Source of the DNA: Winogradskyella sp. PC-19
Lineage (GTDB): Bacteria > Bacteroidota > Bacteroidia > Flavobacteriales > Flavobacteriaceae
DNA length: 64,000 bases
Direction of reading: 5' to 3'
NCBI RefSeq assembly: GCF_002163855.1
Contig: NZ_CP019332.1
Span: 1,405,145-1,469,144 of the forward strand
Under the pieces are notes generated by a model that made no database searches, had not been told where the DNA came from, and saw nothing but the letters and a program-made list of their open reading frames with translations. Below are positions 40,056 through 57,367 of this stretch, piece after piece. The translations under genes and the position numbers were made by a program. Each line of letters opens with the position of its first letter. Within the stretch, counting starts at the first letter, position 1.

Positions 40056-41138
40056 TTAGTTATTTATAATCTTCTCTTGATGATTAATTGATTCTTGGTG
40101 AATGGCTTTAAATACACGAAGAATAAACTCTTCGCTTAAACTTTTCTCTTCACCTTGAAGAATCATCTTACCCAAAATTTCGTTCCAACGTTTAGATTGT
40201 AATACAGCTACATTATGGTCTTTTTTGAGTTGACCGATAGCATCGGCAATATTCATTCGCTTACCAAGCATCTCAATGAGTTGGTGATCCACAACATCAA
40301 TCTGAGTTCTTAGAGTATTAATCTTATTTTTGAATTCAGCGGCTTCTCCTACCTCTTTACGGATACGTAAATCTTCAGTATACTTTGTTAGAGTATCTGG
40401 TGTAATTTGTTGTGCAGCATCACTCCACGCTTTGTCTGGATTATGATGTGTCTCTATCATTAAGCCATCGTAGTTTAAATCTAATGCTGTTTGACTTAGC
40501 TCAAAAATAATATCACGACGTCCAGCAATGTGCGATGGATCTAGGATTATTGGTAAATCTGGAAACCGATCCTGTAAATCTACAGCTATCTGCCACTCTG
40601 GATTATTTCTATATCTCGTTTTTTCATATGTAGAAAACCCTCTATGAATTACTCCCAAATTCTTTACATCGGCAGTATAAAAGCGCTCTACAGCTCCTAA
40701 CCATAAGGCTAAATCTGGGTTTACAGGATTCTTGATTAAAACAGTTTTATCAGTTCCTTTTAAAGCATCTGCAATATCTTGGACGATAAAAGGACTAACT
40801 GTTGTTCTTGCACCTATCCAAAGAATATCAATATCATGTTTTAAGGCTAAATCTACGTGATTAGCATTTGCTACTTCTGTTGTGGTTAACAATCCTGTTT
40901 CTTCTTTTGCACGTTGCATCCACTTGAGTCCAAGAGCTCCAACACCTTCAAAATTTCCTGGTCGTGTTCTAGGTTTCCAAATTCCTGCTCTAAAAACCGT
41001 TGCATCACTATCTTTTAATTGGTGAGCAATTTTTAGTACTTGCTCTTCTGTTTCTGCGCTACATGGCCCAGCAATAACTAGTGGATGATCTAATCCAAAA
41101 GCGTCTAGCCAATTTCTAAGTTCCTTTTTATTTTCCAT
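40056..41138 (-). CDS. Bifunctional DAHP synthase/chorismate mutase
   Basis: A 360-residue fusion. Residues about 1-265 are a type I-beta DAHP synthase (PLVIAGPCSAETEEQVLKIA, FRAGIWKPRTRPGNFEG, IILDPSHIAGRRD), which starts the shikimate pathway from phosphoenolpyruvate and erythrose-4-phosphate. Residues about 270-360 are an AroQ-type chorismate mutase (TLRTQIDVVDHQLIEMLGKR). This order is normal for Bacteroidetes. It is the last gene of the pheA-aminotransferase-tyrA operon, so the first pathway step and the Phe/Tyr branch are controlled together. Prephenate-sensitive feedback through the mutase domain is known in relatives; here it is inferred. Confidence 0.93.
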   Translation of the reverse strand: MENKKELRNWLDAFGLDHPLVIAGPCSAETEEQVLKIAHQLKDSDATVFRAGIWKPRTRPGNFEGVGALGLKWMQRAKEETGLLTTTEVANANHVDLALKHDIDILWIGARTTVSPFIVQDIADALKGTDKTVLIKNPVNPDLALWLGAVERFYTADVKNLGVIHRGFSTYEKTRYRNNPEWQIAVDLQDRFPDLPIILDPSHIAGRRDIIFELSQTALDLNYDGLMIETHHNPDKAWSDAAQQITPDTLTKYTEDLRIRKEVGEAAEFKNKINTLRTQIDVVDHQLIEMLGKRMNIADAIGQLKKDHNVAVLQSKRWNEILGKMILQGEEKSLSEEFILRVFKAIHQESINHQEKIINN

Positions 41139-41156: not shown

Positions 41157-42008
41157 CTATTTAATTCCGTTAAGAATTTGCTTTATATAGTTTGTGTTTT
41201 CCATTTCTTGGTATACAGAGTCAAAATTGTCTTGCTCCATCAAGCTTTTGAAATGTTTTAAGTTGTTTATGTATTCGTCTAATGTTTCTATAACATTGGT
41301 TTTATTTTGTTCAAAAATTGGTGTCCACATCGCTGGACTACTTTTTGCTAAACGTACTGTACTTTCAAAACCACTGCCCGCCATATCAAAAATATCACGT
41401 TCGTTTTTTTCTTTTTCGATAACTGTTTTTCCTAACATAAATGCACTAATATGTGACAGATGCGACATGTAAGCAATGTGCCTATCATGTGCTTTAGGGT
41501 TCATATAGCGTATGCGCATACCTAAGTCTCTAAAAAGCTCTAAAGCTTTCTCCTGAAGTTTAAAAGCTGTTTCTTCGACCTCACAAATAATGTTAGTTTT
41601 ATCTTGAAATAAACCTTTTACCGCTGCTTTTGGACCTGAAAATTCTGTACCTGCAATTGGGTGTGCAGACAGATAATGTCGTCTGTTTGGATGATATTTT
41701 ACTTTATCACAAATATCTTCTTTGGTAGAACCAACATCAAAAACAATGGTGTTCTCTCCAATATTATCAAGAACTTCTGGCAAATAATTAAGAGTTGCGT
41801 CTACAGGAATTGCAACAATAACCATATCGGTTTCTTTAAGCTGATTTATAGTTGCTGATTTATCGATAATCCCAAGCGAAATAGCTTCATCTAAATGTGC
41901 TTTATTCTTATCGATACCATAAATAATTGACTTTGGATATTTTGTCTTGATATCTAAAGCAAAACTGCCACCTATTAACCCAACTCCTATGATTGCTACA
42001 CTCTTCAT
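41157..42008 (-). CDS. tyrA: Prephenate dehydrogenase
   Basis: A 283-residue NAD-dependent enzyme that turns prephenate into 4-hydroxyphenylpyruvate for tyrosine. GVGLIGGSFALD is the Rossmann loop; SAHPIAGTEFSGPKAA carries the prephenate-binding His. There is no fused ACT or mutase domain. It starts 1 bp after the aminotransferase stop, so translation is probably coupled, and ends 18 bp before the DAHP synthase gene. Confidence 0.93.
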   Translation of the reverse strand: MKSVAIIGVGLIGGSFALDIKTKYPKSIIYGIDKNKAHLDEAISLGIIDKSATINQLKETDMVIVAIPVDATLNYLPEVLDNIGENTIVFDVGSTKEDICDKVKYHPNRRHYLSAHPIAGTEFSGPKAAVKGLFQDKTNIICEVEETAFKLQEKALELFRDLGMRIRYMNPKAHDRHIAYMSHLSHISAFMLGKTVIEKEKNERDIFDMAGSGFESTVRLAKSSPAMWTPIFEQNKTNVIETLDEYINNLKHFKSLMEQDNFDSVYQEMENTNYIKQILNGIK

Positions 42009-42009
42009 T

Positions 42010-43155
42010 TTACTTTACTCTAGCTATAGCTTCTTTGATTACTGACTCTTCTTCACAAATAGAAAACCTAACATAACCTTCGCCATTACTTCCAAAAACG
42101 GTTCCTGGAGCCACAAAAATACTGTGCTCTTTTAGTACTAAATCAGTAAACTCTTCACTCTTTATATGTTCAGGTAATTTTGCCCAGACAAATAATCCAG
42201 ATACATCATCATTACAAGTACAGTTTAGTGATTCAGCTAATTCCCATACTAATTCACGTCTTTTTCTGTAAATACTATTTAAACTTTCGAACCACATCTC
42301 AGAACTCTTAAGTGCTTCTACTGCTCCTTTTTGTATGCCATAAAACATTCCAGAATCCATATTACTCTTAACTTTTAAAACTGCATTTACATAATCGTAA
42401 TTACCAACAACCATTCCTGCACGCCAACCTGCCATATTGAATGTTTTACTGATTGAATTCAATTCTAAACATACATCTTTCGCTTGCCTATATTGTAATA
42501 TACTTTTTGGCTTATCGTTTAGAATAAAGCTATATGGATTATCATTTACAATTAAGATATCATGGCGCTTTCCAAAAGCGATAACATCGTCATAAAATTT
42601 GTGAGACGCATTATTTCCTGTTGGCATATTTGGATAATTAATCCACATGATTTTTACCTTACTTAAATCCATACGCTCTAAAGTCACAAAATCTGGTAAC
42701 CAGTTATTTTCTTCTTTTAAATCATAAAAAACAGGCTCAGCTTCTAATAATTTTGCAACACTAGCATAAGTTGGATATCCTGGATTTGGAATTAAAACAC
42801 CATCACCTTTATTTAAAAAAGCCATAGAAATATGCATGACACCTTCTTTACTTCCCATTAATGGCAAAACTTCGGTTTTTGCGCTTAATGAGACTCTATA
42901 ATGCCTTTTGTAGAAATCCGCAACAGCATCTCTAAACTCAGGAATACCTTGGTAACTTTGATACTTGTGCGCTCCTGCATGATGAAGACTTTCCTCTAAA
43001 GCCATAATAGCTTTTAATGGTGGATCTAAATCTGGGCTACCAATACCAAGGTTAATAATAGGCTTACCTTGAGACTTTAAAAAAGCCACTTCTTTAAGTT
43101 TTACAGAAAAGTAGTATTCTTCTACCTGCTTAAGTCGTTCTGCTACTTCTATCAT
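42010..43155 (-). CDS. PLP-dependent class I/II aminotransferase of the Phe/Tyr operon
   Basis: A 381-residue aminotransferase. The PLP Lys is in SISKTFNMAGWRAG, with YPNMPTGN and VNDNPYSF supplying the usual cofactor contacts. Its place between pheA and tyrA indicates that it makes phenylalanine and tyrosine from phenylpyruvate and 4-hydroxyphenylpyruvate, though some close relatives act on other substrates. It overlaps pheA by 4 bp and ends 1 bp before tyrA, so all three are tightly coupled. Confidence 0.9.
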   Translation of the reverse strand: MIEVAERLKQVEEYYFSVKLKEVAFLKSQGKPIINLGIGSPDLDPPLKAIMALEESLHHAGAHKYQSYQGIPEFRDAVADFYKRHYRVSLSAKTEVLPLMGSKEGVMHISMAFLNKGDGVLIPNPGYPTYASVAKLLEAEPVFYDLKEENNWLPDFVTLERMDLSKVKIMWINYPNMPTGNNASHKFYDDVIAFGKRHDILIVNDNPYSFILNDKPKSILQYRQAKDVCLELNSISKTFNMAGWRAGMVVGNYDYVNAVLKVKSNMDSGMFYGIQKGAVEALKSSEMWFESLNSIYRKRRELVWELAESLNCTCNDDVSGLFVWAKLPEHIKSEEFTDLVLKEHSIFVAPGTVFGSNGEGYVRFSICEEESVIKEAIARVK

Positions 43156-43985
43156 GATTTTGCGTTTTTATATTCCCCTAAAATCTTAAAATTTTCTGCC
43201 ATAATATTTACAATAGATTTTGCTTTTTTGTAATCTGTGTACTCATCAAAGGTAACATCTATAAAGAAAGCATACTTCCAAGGCATATCAATCTTTGGTA
43301 AAGATTGAATTTTAGTTAGGTTTAGTTTACAATCACTTAACACATTAAGTATCGCTGCCAAACTACCACGTTTGTGGTCTAACTCAAATTTTAATGATGC
43401 TTTATTGATATCAGTATCATTGATATTTGCTTTCTCACTCTTAACAATAACAAAACGTGTTTCGTTGTGTTTAATAGTCTGAATACTTTGTGCCAAAATA
43501 TCTAAGCCATACAAACTAGAAGCCGTTTTACTAGCTATTGCTGCAATACCTTTAATATTATTCTCTGAAATCGATTTAGCAACATCGGCAGTATCTTTTG
43601 CTTCAACCAATTTTATTTTTGGATACAATTTAAAGAACGCTTTACATTGTAATAATGCCATTGGGTGAGAGTGCACTTCTTTTATATCTTCTATTTTTTG
43701 ACCAGGAAACGCTATTAAATTATGCTGAATATCTAAATAATACTCGCCAATAATATTTAAATCATGAGTATCAATTAATGCATAATTTGGAATAATCGAA
43801 CCTGCAATAGAATTTTCGATGGCCATCACTGCCACGTCTGAAGTTTTATCTAAAACACTCTCTACCAACACATCAAAGCTTAAACACTCTACCAATGACT
43901 GTGTGCCATCAAAAAACTTTTCTACCACACTGTGATGAAAAGATCCTTTGATGCCCTGAATGGCTATCGTGCTTATTGTACTCAT
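43152..43985 (-). CDS. pheA: Prephenate dehydratase with ACT domain
   Basis: A 277-residue enzyme that makes phenylpyruvate from prephenate. The catalytic half (about 1-185) shows IQGIKGSFHH, ENSIAGSI and the conserved Thr in NETRFVIV. The C-terminal ACT domain (about 195-275, ELDHKRGSLAAILNVLSDC, then LTKIQSLP) should bind Phe for feedback inhibition. It is the first structural gene of the operon, 80 bp downstream of a leader peptide and directly after an attenuator hairpin, so both enzyme and transcript appear to respond to aromatic amino acids. Confidence 0.95.
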   Translation of the reverse strand: MSTISTIAIQGIKGSFHHSVVEKFFDGTQSLVECLSFDVLVESVLDKTSDVAVMAIENSIAGSIIPNYALIDTHDLNIIGEYYLDIQHNLIAFPGQKIEDIKEVHSHPMALLQCKAFFKLYPKIKLVEAKDTADVAKSISENNIKGIAAIASKTASSLYGLDILAQSIQTIKHNETRFVIVKSEKANINDTDINKASLKFELDHKRGSLAAILNVLSDCKLNLTKIQSLPKIDMPWKYAFFIDVTFDEYTDYKKAKSIVNIMAENFKILGEYKNAKS

Positions 43986-44013
43986 TATTAAAAATAATCT
44001 TTAAAACTACTGC

Positions 44014-44085
44014 AAAAAAAAATCCCGATTTTCATCGAGACTTAGTTCAAATATATGTTATAAATTACACACACAACGTCTCGAT
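44014..44085 (-). promoter_or_regulatory. Transcription attenuator (terminator/antiterminator switch) before pheA
   Basis: On the minus strand, GTCTCGAT (44041-44034) can pair in two ways. With ATCGGGA across a GAAA loop it makes a 7-bp stem (one G-U) followed by nine T (44022-44014), an intrinsic terminator. With the upstream ATCGAGAC (44085-44078), which lies inside the leader peptide frame, it makes a perfect 8-bp antiterminator. A ribosome finishing the leader would cover the upstream arm and allow termination; one stalled at the Tyr/Phe codons would leave it free. The mechanism is inferred by analogy with known phe and trp attenuators. Confidence 0.82.
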
Positions 44086-44142
44086 CTTTTTGTCAAAAAA
44101 GAAATAAAGCCAGTTGTAATATGTATGATTTGTAGTTTTCAT
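44065..44142 (-). CDS. Leader peptide of the Phe/Tyr operon (25 aa, Y/F-rich)
   Basis: A 25-codon frame from the ATG at 44142 to TAA at 44065-44067. Residues 8-16 are YYNWLYFFF: three Tyr, one Trp and three Phe in nine residues. Such density is extremely unlikely by chance and suits an operon that makes Phe and Tyr. The frame ends 79 bases before pheA, and its last third contains one arm of the antiterminator. Its role would be to report the supply of charged Tyr- and Phe-tRNA through ribosome stalling. The frame is too short for usual gene calling. Confidence 0.82.
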   Translation of the reverse strand: MKTTNHTYYNWLYFFFDKKIETLCV

Positions 44143-44280
44143 TGGTGCTAATGTATATAATAAAATCGCAAAACAAAATACTAAAGCCTAATTTTTAATG
44201 TTTTATCTGAAAAATTAAAGATTAGCCTGTAATTTAGTCTTTACATTACATATTGTTTATTTTTGAAAAAAGATATTAAG

Positions 44281-45174
44281 ATGTCAATAAAAGTTGAGAA
44301 TATCACCAAGGTATACGGCGAACAAAAAGCTTTAAATAATATTTCTTTCTCAGTAAATGCTGCCGAAATTGTTGGTTTTTTAGGCCCAAATGGAGCTGGA
44401 AAATCTACTATGATGAAAATATTGACAACTTATATAAATCCATCTGGAGGTGAGGCCAAAGTCAATGGATATGATATCGACAGTGATAAAAAGTCTGTTC
44501 AAAGTTCCGTAGGTTATTTACCTGAGCACAACCCTTTATATACCGAACTTTACGTTAGAGAATATCTAAAGTTTAATGCAGATGTATACGGCGTTAACAA
44601 AACACGCATCGAAGAAGTTATTGACCTAACAGGATTAACACCAGAATCTCAGAAAAAAATAGGGCAACTCTCCAAAGGTTATCGTCAACGTGTTGGCTTA
44701 GCAAATGCGATGCTTCACAATCCTGAAGTACTAATTTTAGATGAGCCTACAACTGGATTAGACCCAAATCAGTTGGTCGATATCAGAAATCTTATTAAAA
44801 ATATCGGCAAAGAAAAGACGGTATTTCTATCCACACATATTATGCAAGAAGTCGAAGCTATGTGTGATCGTGTAATTATAATTAATAAAGGTGAAATTGT
44901 TGCAGACAAGTATTTAGCAGAGATGCGACAAGGACAAGAACAAGTTGTTGTTGTAGAATTTGACTATCGCGTAGAGGATACTTTTTTATTAAAATTACCG
45001 AATGTTAGCTCTGTAAAAAATACACATGATTTTATTTATGAAATCACATTTTCTACTACAGAGGATATGCGCTCTCATGTTTTTGATTTTGCTCATGACA
45101 ATGAGTTAAAGATTCTTCAGCTTAATCAAAAAAATGAAAGTTTAGAAAGTTTGTTTAGAGAATTGACTAATTAA
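44281..45174 (+). CDS. gldA: Gliding-motility ABC transporter ATP-binding protein GldA
   Basis: A 297-residue ABC ATPase. Walker A is GPNGAGKST, the signature is LSKGYRQRVGLA and Walker B is VLILDEPTTGLDP. Sequence and length match GldA, which in F. johnsoniae works with membrane proteins GldF and GldG in gliding; those are not in this window. I chose the ATG at 44281 (MSIKVENITKVYGEQ), the family start; a TTG 18 bases upstream is in frame but less likely. TATTTTTG at 44258-44265 could be the -7 element, implying a very short leader. Confidence 0.92.
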   Translation: MSIKVENITKVYGEQKALNNISFSVNAAEIVGFLGPNGAGKSTMMKILTTYINPSGGEAKVNGYDIDSDKKSVQSSVGYLPEHNPLYTELYVREYLKFNADVYGVNKTRIEEVIDLTGLTPESQKKIGQLSKGYRQRVGLANAMLHNPEVLILDEPTTGLDPNQLVDIRNLIKNIGKEKTVFLSTHIMQEVEAMCDRVIIINKGEIVADKYLAEMRQGQEQVVVVEFDYRVEDTFLLKLPNVSSVKNTHDFIYEITFSTTEDMRSHVFDFAHDNELKILQLNQKNESLESLFRELTN

Positions 45175-54281: not shown

Positions 54282-55574
54282 TTAAGCTTGCACAGGCTTT
54301 AAAACAGCTGCGAAAGCTTCTTTTAAATCTGTCTTTAAATCTTCAACATCCTCTAAACCAACTGATAGACGAATTAAATCTTTGGTTACACCTGTACTCT
54401 GTTGTTCAGTGTCCGTAAGTTGTTGATGCGTTGTACTTGCTGGATGAATTATTAGAGACTTGGTATCTCCAATATTTGCCAATAAAGAGAATAATTCTGT
54501 TGTATCTGCTACTTTCTTTGCAGCTTCAAAACCTCCTTTAAGTCCAAAAGTAACAATGCCACTTTTGCCGTTTGGTAAATATTTGTCGGCTAAATCTTTA
54601 TAATTACTCGTTTCTAAGCCTGGATAATTTACCCAAGAAACTTCGTCTTGTTGCTGTAACCATTGTGCTAATTCTAATGCGTTTTCGCTATGCTTCTTTA
54701 TCCTTAACTCTAAAGTTTCTAAACCTTGAATAATTTGAAACGCATTAAAAGGACTCAATGCACCACCATAATCTCTTAAACCTTCGATTCTTACTTTGGC
54801 GATAAATGCTGCCTCTTCTAGCGCTTCACTATATACTAAACCATGATAACCTTCTGATGGCTCTGTAAATTCAGGGAATTTTCCGTTTGTCCAATCAAAT
54901 GTCCCAGCGTCAATAATTATTCCACCTAATGCTGTACCATTACCATTGATATATTTTGTAAGCGAATGAATTACAATATTAGCACCATGAGCAATAGGAT
55001 TAAGTAAATACGGTGTAGCAACAGTATTGTCAACAACTAAAGGCACTTTATGTGCTTTTGCTTGCGCCGAAATACTTTCAACATCTAAAACATCTAATTT
55101 TGGATTTCCTAAAGACTCAATAAAAAATAACCTTGTGTTTTCTTGTGCAGTGTTCTTAAAGTTTTCAGCTTCTGAAGGGTCGACAAAAGTTGTTGTAATT
55201 CCATGTCTTGGTAGTGTTACTTTTAACAAATTATAGGTTCCTCCGTACAAACTACTAGAAGCTACAATATGGTCGCCAGCTCTAAGAAGCGTTAATAAAG
55301 TTGTAGAAATAGCAGAAGTTCCTGATGCTGTTGCCACAGCTGCAATACCTCCTTCAAGTGTAGCTAGACGTTGCTCTAAAACGTCTGTTGTAGGGTTGTT
55401 AATCCTTGTATAAATATTTCCAGGTTCAGCTAATGAAAATAAATTAGCTGCATGATCTGAATCATTAAACACATAAGCTGTTGATTGGTAAATAGGAACA
55501 GCTCTTGTTCCTCCATTTTGATTGACATTGTGTCCTGCATGCAACGCTTTAGTTGCAAATTTTTGTGTACTCAT
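54282..55574 (-). CDS. metY: O-acetylhomoserine aminocarboxypropyltransferase (sulfhydrylase)
   Basis: A 430-residue PLP enzyme that makes homocysteine directly from O-acetylhomoserine and sulfide. The PLP Lys is in HSLTKYINGNGTALGG; YTRINNPTTDVLEQRLATLE and GGTYNLLKVTLPRHGI are typical. Length fits the sulfhydrylase rather than cystathionine synthase group. It is the first gene of the metY-metX-hom-split metH-metF operon, behind a SAM-I riboswitch. Confidence 0.94.
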   Translation of the reverse strand: MSTQKFATKALHAGHNVNQNGGTRAVPIYQSTAYVFNDSDHAANLFSLAEPGNIYTRINNPTTDVLEQRLATLEGGIAAVATASGTSAISTTLLTLLRAGDHIVASSSLYGGTYNLLKVTLPRHGITTTFVDPSEAENFKNTAQENTRLFFIESLGNPKLDVLDVESISAQAKAHKVPLVVDNTVATPYLLNPIAHGANIVIHSLTKYINGNGTALGGIIIDAGTFDWTNGKFPEFTEPSEGYHGLVYSEALEEAAFIAKVRIEGLRDYGGALSPFNAFQIIQGLETLELRIKKHSENALELAQWLQQQDEVSWVNYPGLETSNYKDLADKYLPNGKSGIVTFGLKGGFEAAKKVADTTELFSLLANIGDTKSLIIHPASTTHQQLTDTEQQSTGVTKDLIRLSVGLEDVEDLKTDLKEAFAAVLKPVQA

Positions 55575-55695: not shown

Positions 55696-55699
55696 GTTG

Positions 55700-55820
55700 G
55701 TTATCTATCTAGAATAAGCGAGAAATGATTCGCTAATCAAGTAGAATTTAGCACCTTCTTAGTAAGTCTAAGGGTTGCTAAGGCTTCATCGGGTCTATTC
55801 CCTCTGCCTTTCTTGATAAC
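55700..55820 (-). promoter_or_regulatory. SAM-I (S-box) riboswitch upstream of metY
   Basis: Minus-strand sequence matches the S-box core in order: GTTATCAAGAAAGGCAGAGG, then GACCCGATGAAGCC, AGCAACC, a P3 stem (CTTAG...CTAAG), AAGGTGCTAAATTC, a P4 stem (GCGA...TCGC) and the closing GATAAC that pairs with the initial GTTATC. All conserved loops and the kink-turn region are present. SAM binding should switch off the methionine operon. The gene start is 125 bases downstream. Confidence 0.93.
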
Positions 55821-55983
55821 ATTTCAGTAAGTTTTTGAACTTTGTGAATACAAATATTCGATTATAAAAATTTAATATCCAAATCTTTTTTTGATTTTAT
55901 CAATTTTTAACAGATTAACTACATCGAACTTATCTTTTAGGAATTAGTTATGATAACTATCTTCGTTTATTATTATAAATGTG

Positions 55984-55991: not shown

Positions 55992-56006
55992 CACCGAAAT
56001 TAATTA

Positions 56007-56058
56007 AGAGGAAAGATTTGACTGATTGCAACCTCTGGAAAAAATTGCTAAAGACAGT
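56007..56058 (+). promoter_or_regulatory. SAM-II riboswitch upstream of metK
   Basis: The layout matches the SAM-II pseudoknot: AGAGG (56007-56011) pairs with CCTCT as stem 1, enclosing GATTT...ATTGCAA, then GGAAAAAATTGCTAAAGA. ACTG (56021-56024) can pair with CAGT (56055-56058) as the pseudoknot stem. Conserved ATTGCAA and GCTAAA are both present. It should lower metK expression when SAM is abundant. A separate 10-base complementarity to 56081-56090 may be the switch to the gene. Confidence 0.85.
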
Positions 56059-56110
56059 GTTAGACTTTCCTTGTTATTACGTCAAATCTTCAAAATAAAA
56101 ATCTTAGAAT

Positions 56111-57367
56111 ATGGCGTATTTATTTACTTCAGAAAGTGTTTCTGAAGGACATCCAGACAAAGTAGCAGATCAAATTAGCGATGCATTAATTGACAACTTT
56201 TTAGCGTTTGACAAAGACTCTAAAGTAGCTTGTGAAACCCTTGTAACAACGGGACAAGTTGTATTAGCGGGAGAAGTAAAATCCGATACTTATTTAGACG
56301 TACAGCAAATCGCTAGAGATGTCATTAACAAAATTGGCTATACCAAAGGAGAATATATGTTTGACGGTAGTTCTTGTGGCGTTTTATCTGCAATACATGA
56401 ACAATCTCCAGACATTAATCAAGGTGTAGACCGTGCAAAACCTGAAGATCAAGGTGCAGGTGACCAAGGAATGATGTTCGGTTATGCTACTGACGAAACT
56501 GAAAACTATATGCCATTAGCTTTAGAGCTTTCACATCGTCTTTTAAAAGAATTAGCAGAATTACGTCGTGAAAATAAAGACATTACCTATTTACGTCCTG
56601 ATGCAAAATCTCAGGTAACTATTGAGTATAGTGATGACAATGTACCTCAACGCATTGATGCGATTGTATTATCTACACAACACGATGATTTTGATGCTAG
56701 TGATGATGTAATGTTAGCACAAATCAAAAAAGACATTGTAGAAATTTTAATACCTCGTGTGGTTGCCAAATTACCAGCACATATCCAAAAATTATTTACA
56801 GATAGTATTACGTATCACATTAACCCAACTGGTGTTTTTGTAATTGGTGGACCTCACGGTGACACTGGATTAACAGGTCGTAAGATTATTGTTGACACTT
56901 ATGGTGGTAAAGGTGCACATGGTGGTGGTGCTTTTTCAGGAAAAGACCCAAGTAAGGTAGACCGTTCTGGCGCTTATGCAACACGACATATTGCAAAAAA
57001 CCTAGTAGCAGCAGGTTTATGTAAAGAAGTATTAGTACAGGTAAGTTATGCCATTGGTGTAGCAAAACCAACTAGTATTAATGTTGAAACTTACGGTACA
57101 GCAACAATTGATAAAACTGATGGAGAGATTAGTAAAAACGTCGAATCTATTTTTGATATGCGTCCATACTTTATCGAACAACGCTTAAAGTTAAGAACGC
57201 CTATATATTCTGAAACTGCAGCATACGGTCATATGGGACGTACGCCAGAAGTAAAAACATTAACTTTCAAAAATCCGATGGGTCAAGAAGTTACCGAAAC
57301 TGTTGAAACATTTACATGGGAAAAATTAGACTATGTGGATAAAGTGAAAGCAGCTTTTGGATTGTAA
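56111..57367 (+). CDS. metK: S-adenosylmethionine synthetase
   Basis: A 418-residue enzyme that makes SAM from methionine and [26 protein letters not shown] and [19 protein letters not shown] are complete signatures. Length is normal for Bacteroidetes. It stands alone between a SAM-II riboswitch and a strong terminator, and is divergent from the methionine operon. Confidence 0.96.

Follow-up and report, generated by a model that had tools for sequence, protein, structure and literature searches.

A conserved leader region with the anatomy of a ribosome-mediated attenuator precedes the phenylalanine/tyrosine operon of Winogradskyella and related Bacteroidota

Ribosome-mediated transcription attenuation is textbook knowledge in proteobacteria, where the pheA attenuator (pheL) combines a leader peptide carrying a run of phenylalanine residues with a terminator and an antiterminator, and where the trp attenuator operates by a three-segment logic. 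For the Bacteroidota, we found little on this type of control in the literature that we searched. Comparative attenuator surveys reportedly published by Vitreschak et al. in 2004 and by Lopatovskaya et al. in 2010 may hold predictions for Bacteroidetes.

The closest description concerns Flavobacterium psychrophilum, for which the accessible part of a study from 2021 describes strong signs of leader peptide attenuation in front of amino acid operons and lists a 5′ element of hisG as well as a 5′ element of pheA that is present in other Flavobacteriaceae genera and has no Rfam hit (PMC9723704). This pheA element is a structured 5′ region that shares its gene and family with the element described here, but that part of the source gives no peptide, segments, covariation, or spread beyond the family and does not expressly name the element as one of the attenuators. 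The two are likely the same element. Excerpts of other work describe short ORFs reminiscent of attenuation in B. thetaiotaomicron (PMC7366714) and a Bacteroid-trp RNA (RF01692) as a likely cis-regulatory RNA candidate in Bacteroidetes (PMC2864571), which is by name a trp element and has no match at gathering score in the DNA analyzed here. Beyond PMC9723704, a mixed Phe/Tyr leader in Bacteroidota was not found in the mostly open literature searched, including the accessible parts of PMC7366714, PMC2864571, PMC4833913, and PMC2965389. In addition, Bacteroidota ribosomes are reported, in the part of the source at hand, not to recognize Shine-Dalgarno sequences (PMC9976891). Attenuators of this kind are therefore known in outline, and so probably is this element; its anatomy with all segments, its covariation, its geometry, and its breadth beyond the family are new in that we found none of them in the literature searched.

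Three hisG loci of the same family carry short leaders with three or four His codons in a run (L191, MKTQNVHHHHFFTSRQAR; L192, MKNRNTHHHFYTGSQAR; L194, MRTIQLHHHHFYPHAQAR). These are all of the readable ones among five hisG loci, each leader is followed by what by eye is a terminator-like hairpin, and the three are probable his attenuators, i.e., they belong to another operon and another amino acid than the pheA element. No clear leader was seen at ilvD in the four readable loci of six matches (L201 left out).

The element studied here lies in a stretch of 64,000 nucleotides from Winogradskyella sp. PC-19 (the window), on its minus strand. It has a leader peptide with a Phe run, a terminator, and a candidate antiterminator in common with pheL and the three-segment logic in common with the trp attenuator, from which it differs in its control codons. 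Unlike pheL, leaders of this element mix in Tyr codons and often Trp codons, and the operon behind them also makes tyrosine and starts the common aromatic pathway. The leader ORF (MKTTNHTYYNWLYFFFDKKIETLCV; 44065..44142) consists of 25 codons and a TAA stop, and its residues 8-16 read YYNWLYFFF, which we take from the translation and from column counts among relatives as the control codons (44095..44121). Between this ORF and the first gene, pheA, lies what is by sequence an intrinsic terminator, a hairpin of 10 pairs with 3 G-C (AAGTCTCGAT-GAAA-ATCGGGATTT, 44043-44020) that is followed by nine T (44014..44022). The 5′ arm of the hairpin forms segment 3 (44034..44043), and its 3′ arm, assigned from the hairpin and from pair counts, forms segment 4 (44020..44029), which the T run overlaps. 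Inside the leader, segment 2 (ATCGAGAC, 44085-44078) is exactly complementary over 8 nt to the core of segment 3 (GTCTCGAT, 44041-44034) and would be the antiterminator strand, an assignment that rests on this complementarity and on the permutation test described below. An additional stem joins the Tyr codons (segment 1, approximately 44113..44127, placed by folding and by alignment of close relatives) to the sequence directly 3′ of segment 2 (approximately 44066..44077). An earlier note on this DNA had reported the 25-codon frame, the aromatic run, the GAAA hairpin with its nine T, and the 8-base match, all of which we recovered exactly.

How surprising these features are can be judged from shuffles. 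When the leader was shuffled with its dinucleotides preserved, 5 of 5000 versions had a Watson-Crick run of at least 8 with the terminator 5′ arm. Shuffling of the window's 500-nt upstream region yielded, in 26 of 1000 versions, an ORF with 7 or more aromatic residues in a stretch of 10. Taken by itself, the sequence of the window is therefore suggestive of an attenuator, and it is the conservation of both leader and pairing among relatives that settles their reality.

The element heads an operon whose four genes all gave profile matches, in agreement with the reading of the earlier note: pheA for prephenate dehydratase (43152..43985; E 5.5e-59, below the curated cut-off), a class I aminotransferase gene (42010..43155), tyrA for prephenate dehydrogenase (41157..42008; above the curated cut-off), and a gene for a bifunctional DAHP synthase / chorismate mutase (40056..41138; both domains matched, below the curated cut-offs), all on the minus strand. 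This gene order is identical in 79 of 80 loci of close relatives, and the contig of the remaining one (L030) ends after tyrA. On the other side of the element, gldA (44281-45174, plus strand) is divergent, and the terminator therefore has no upstream gene to serve. Elsewhere, the window carries two different classes of riboswitches back to back, i.e., a SAM-I riboswitch (55698-55822, minus strand) facing an O-acetylhomoserine sulfhydrylase gene (54282-55574) with a metX-like gene further on and a SAM-II riboswitch (56002-56061, plus strand) facing metK (56111-57367).

The best 80 of 425 PheA relatives in a scan of named genomes, from Winogradskyella and other flavobacteria, served as a close set. 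Ahead of pheA, 79 of them carry an ORF whose aromatic run is of the TYYNWFYFFF type, and the contig of the exception (L052) begins 153 nt ahead of pheA. With the window included and columns counted from the end of the run, each of the last five codon columns is F or Y in no fewer than 74 of 80 leaders and the sixth is W in 72 of 80; N is found at its column in 66 of 80. Outside the run the peptide varies, and W is replaced in several genera. Segment 2 reads CGAGAC or CGAGGC in most close relatives, while the stop codon moves such that the segment lies in frame in some leaders and beyond an earlier stop in others, which argues that it is conserved as RNA.

A TTG at about −33 (44174..44176, minus strand), located upstream of the leader, is taken to be an element of the Bacteroidota promoter. 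It is followed by a −7 box, TACATTAG (44148..44155, minus strand), of the Bacteroidota sigma-A type with A for T at one place; the consensus is given as TAnnTTTG at positions −12 to −5 in the accessible part of PMC9723704. With the window included and two loci left out (L030, too short; L052, no leader), a box of the form TAnnTT(T/A)G is present in 78 of 79 upstream regions, as TACATTAG or TACTTTAG and once as TAATTTAG. The TTG lies exactly 18 nt 5′ of the box in 66 of these 78 regions, and the other 12 have no TTG at other spacings of 16-24. In the window and in L001, the box ends 5 nt ahead of the leader start codon, compared with 9-41 nt in the other relatives. From this gap, transcription in the window would begin about one base before the ATG, and the leader mRNA of the window and of L001 may thus be leaderless.

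To follow the element more widely, family, order, and phylum samples were centered on the genome of L003 (G001). In an evenly drawn sample of the family, 51 of 60 genomes encode this PheA, and 46 of 50 upstream stretches contain at least 7 aromatic residues in 10, each with a scripted terminator call. Two further genomes have the leader as well, G016 (L188) further upstream of pheA and G051 with its start codon cut off by the contig end, so that the aromatic leader is found in 49 of 51 pheA-bearing genomes including G001; upstream of the family-type pheA of L118 and L119 there is none. Only the leaders of G016 and G051 were located with a model (R1) whose hits at E ≤0.01, counted irrespective of their place, include 144 of 199 family genomes. 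At L188, about 500 nt separate the putative attenuator from pheA, far above most others. The earlier note had predicted that relatives would keep both the aromatic run and the alternative pairing, and this is borne out by the close set as well as by the family.

Of 109 genomes in the phylum sample, 96 encode a match to PheA, and the upstream regions of 42 of these 96 were examined. Leader and terminator accompany PheA scores of at least 201 bits in 22 of 23 genomes besides G001 (exception, L140), and the element is absent from all 19 examined genomes among the 72 with PheA scores of at most 158 bits. The order of G001 has a PheA match in 27 of 50 sampled genomes, of which all but three were examined, and 17 newly examined ones comprise nine with leader and terminator, one (L180) with a leader lacking a terminator accepted by the script, and seven with neither. 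The link between PheA type and leader has exceptions, since L176-L178 and L181 score 256 to 274 bits and have no leader with terminator. Altogether, the high-scoring PheA type lacks the leader in L118, L119, L140, L176-L178, and L181, which counts against the attenuator. L176, L177, and L178 (G327, G344, and G336) come from genomes of about 0.6 Mb with a PheA of about 50% identity, and L178 shows a GTG frame that is rich in F/Y but lacks a terminator.

None of the genomes in the G277 order appears in the sample of the G001 order, and the two are on this basis most likely distinct; PheA and the aromatic leader are found in all 26 genomes sampled from the G277 order and a scripted terminator in 25 of them. 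The order of G214 has a PheA match in 18 of 26 genomes. G214 itself carries a leader with terminator; among the 17 other PheA-matching genomes, 10 were examined and none has a leader. G214 (L141) encodes a flavobacterial-type PheA with 45% identity, whereas the ten examined members of its order have a divergent PheA; judging from these sequences, its operon was perhaps acquired by transfer along with the putative switch. Distant leaders retain only the F/Y-rich run. At about 299-570 of L150, pheA is preceded by two consecutive aromatic leaders, each with a terminator of its own behind it, which could possibly represent a double attenuator.

We then compared the RNA structure of the window with that of 51 relatives after leaving out near-duplicates (n=52). 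Both partners have changed in five pairs of the 1:2 stem and in one pair of the terminator; among close relatives, the outer eight pairs of the 1:2 stem are paired in 92.5% of cases and the inner three in only 53.8%, which counts against the attenuator. On five measures, 0 to 5 of 500 column shuffles scored as high as the real structure. It also beats versions slid along the alignment on four of the five measures, with the double-change count tying at six for slide −1, though the tested structure was drawn from the same 52 sequences, which gives it an advantage over the slides. In these sequences, 89.7% of the 2:3 helix is paired versus 18 to 49% for slid versions, but it shows no double-change pair and no excess over column shuffles there because segment 3 hardly varies.

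Covariation of the 2:3 pairing rests on deeper relatives. The terminator arm varies across genera (GUCUCGAU, GUCCCGU, GUCCUGA, GCCUCGA, AUCCCGC, GACCGCU, and others), and segment 2 varies in step. With one representative per distinct arm (n=44), a choice that does not remove relatedness from the counts altogether, the duplex energies of each segment 2 with its own segment 3 sum to −553.6 kcal/mol, compared with a mean of −369.8 kcal/mol (sd 16.2) for permuted arms, and none of 20,000 permutations reached the own sum. Among all 102 leaders, the own pairing is stronger than the mean foreign pairing in 97 and falls among the best 25% in 75 and the best 10% in 57; in the remaining 5 of 102 it is no better than the mean foreign pairing, which speaks against the attenuator. 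The earlier note had called for a test of covariation in both stems; the 2:3 stem shows it in deeper relatives and not in the close set. Segment 2 was assigned by duplex energies in place of the longest helix, a search that had returned other, mostly AU-rich helices in 35 of 80 sequences (window and 79 loci). A MAFFT alignment of 53 divergent leaders misplaced segment 2 by at least one column, so no pair count from it was used and the permutation test was employed for covariation.

We consider it very likely that this element is a ribosome-mediated, i.e., leader-peptide, transcription attenuator, a reading supported by the conservation of aromatic run and alternative pairing and by the covariation of this pairing across distant relatives. 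RNA polymerase would start just upstream of the leader, and a ribosome would translate the leader peptide. With ample charged Tyr-, Trp-, and Phe-tRNA, it would reach the stop codon and cover segment 2, so that segments 3 and 4 would pair and transcription would end near 44014, ahead of pheA. If any of these charged tRNAs were short, the ribosome would halt within YYNWLYFFF, break the 1:2 stem, and leave segment 2 free to capture segment 3 before segment 4 exists, in which case no terminator would form and the operon would be transcribed.

The spacing of the segments is consistent with this scheme. In 93 of 102 leaders, segment 2 begins 9-14 nt downstream of the first nucleotide of the final aromatic codon, which would be about the leading edge of a ribosome whose A site is occupied by this codon, on the assumption that the E. 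coli footprint applies here. This position alone is weak evidence because foreign arms pair best at 9-14 nt, too, in 0.67 of cases. Under the same footprint, the stalled ribosome would cover no more than about one third of segment 2 in 71 of 80 leaders, a ribosome at the stop would cover half or more of it in 72, and both hold for 66.

The two forms whose folding energies the earlier note had proposed to compare come out differently for nascent and complete RNA. In the window, the antiterminator hairpin with inner pairs has −15.7 kcal/mol, the 1:2 stem −14.4 kcal/mol, and the terminator −10.2 kcal/mol. For a nascent RNA ending at segment 3, the predicted probability of 2:3 pairing is 0.85-0.97 with the ribosome at codons 2-16, falls to 0.45 at codon 17, and is 0 from codon 18 on. 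Two results count against the attenuator, as the nascent RNA without any ribosome also prefers 2:3 (0.90) and as the full transcript at equilibrium gives P(3:4) of 0.71-0.92 at the Phe stalls. The 1:2 stem, which is made earlier, might keep the ribosome-free RNA from adopting 2:3. At equilibrium, the terminator indeed wins at every ribosome position tried, least so at Tyr13 (0.31 versus 0.68), and the switch must therefore depend, like its classical counterparts, on timing during transcription. Modeled folding switches in 63 of 80 leaders compared with 17% of 1600 shuffled controls, whose middles also show rather frequent pairing with the arm (median 0.67). The window and 16 others do not switch by this test; the window falls short at the stop (0.48) on a measure that counts any upstream pairing of the arm, while its specific 2:3 pairing falls to 0.

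Could the hairpin merely be a plain terminator or transcript end, with the short ORF and the complementary segment arising by chance in AT-rich DNA? F and Y codons are AT-rich, terminator-like matches are not enriched in the region (5 found versus a mean of 4.5 in shuffles), and the overall folding energy of the leader is ordinary (z −1.03; 29 of 200 shuffles fold equally well or better). However, the divergent gldA leaves no upstream transcript that would need ending here, an ORF passing the aromatic criterion appears in 15 of 1000 family-sample shuffles versus 46 of 50 real family regions, leader and alternative pairing are conserved across the phylum, and the 19 examined low-scoring pheA genes go without the element. 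These comparative data argue strongly against a chance arrangement, which we regard as extremely improbable.

A metabolite- or tRNA-binding riboswitch that controls the terminator directly, with translation irrelevant, would look similar in outline, given a leader with terminator and antiterminator. Yet the coding frame is conserved together with its control codons and a ribosome-scale spacing, and neither the element nor seven relatives match any Rfam family at gathering score, be it a T-box or a metabolite riboswitch; Phe_leader (RF01859) and Trp_leader (RF00513) reach 16.8 and 20.0 bits compared with gathering scores of 55 and 41. Such a riboswitch is hardly to be expected here. Very unlikely as well is a leader peptide that acts through its sequence, either as an arrest peptide or in trans as a small protein, with the RNA switch secondary. 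The good conservation of N and W inside the run of close relatives would fit this reading, but residues outside the run vary, W is absent from 50 of 102 wide-set leaders besides its replacement in several genera, the stop codon shifts from before to after segment 2, and distant leaders keep merely an F/Y-rich stretch.

For the ribosome-mediated attenuator, the codons of the leader suggest which amino acids would be sensed. Phe and Tyr codons occur together in 102 of 102 leaders, with totals of 416 F, 283 Y, and 45 W codons in the first 80, and this mix fits an operon making both amino acids, as proposed in the earlier note. Trp might be sensed, too, because its codon is present in most close relatives, in 30 of 46 family leaders, and in 52 of the 102. 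The element may thus be a sensor for aromatic amino acids in general, which fits an operon that makes Phe and Tyr and includes the first enzyme of the common pathway.

The broader picture that we favor with some reserve is that of an old attenuator for the aromatic group that would have accompanied one pheA operon type across no fewer than two orders of Bacteroidota. It would work on ribosomes that do not use Shine-Dalgarno sequences and with a leader ORF that, in the window, begins on or beside the first nucleotide of the transcript, which would indicate that transcription and translation are tightly coupled in this phylum, over such leaders at least. The coupling that had been suggested for the phylum would hold for the leader region only and not genome-wide. 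Since the leader would work only with a ribosome close behind RNA polymerase, it offers a direct and simple test of coupling. The set of putative attenuators assembled here provides segments that can be tested, numerous natural variants, and a seed for an Rfam family that is missing, and a classical type of switch would now be seen in many members of a phylum in which it has received little study.
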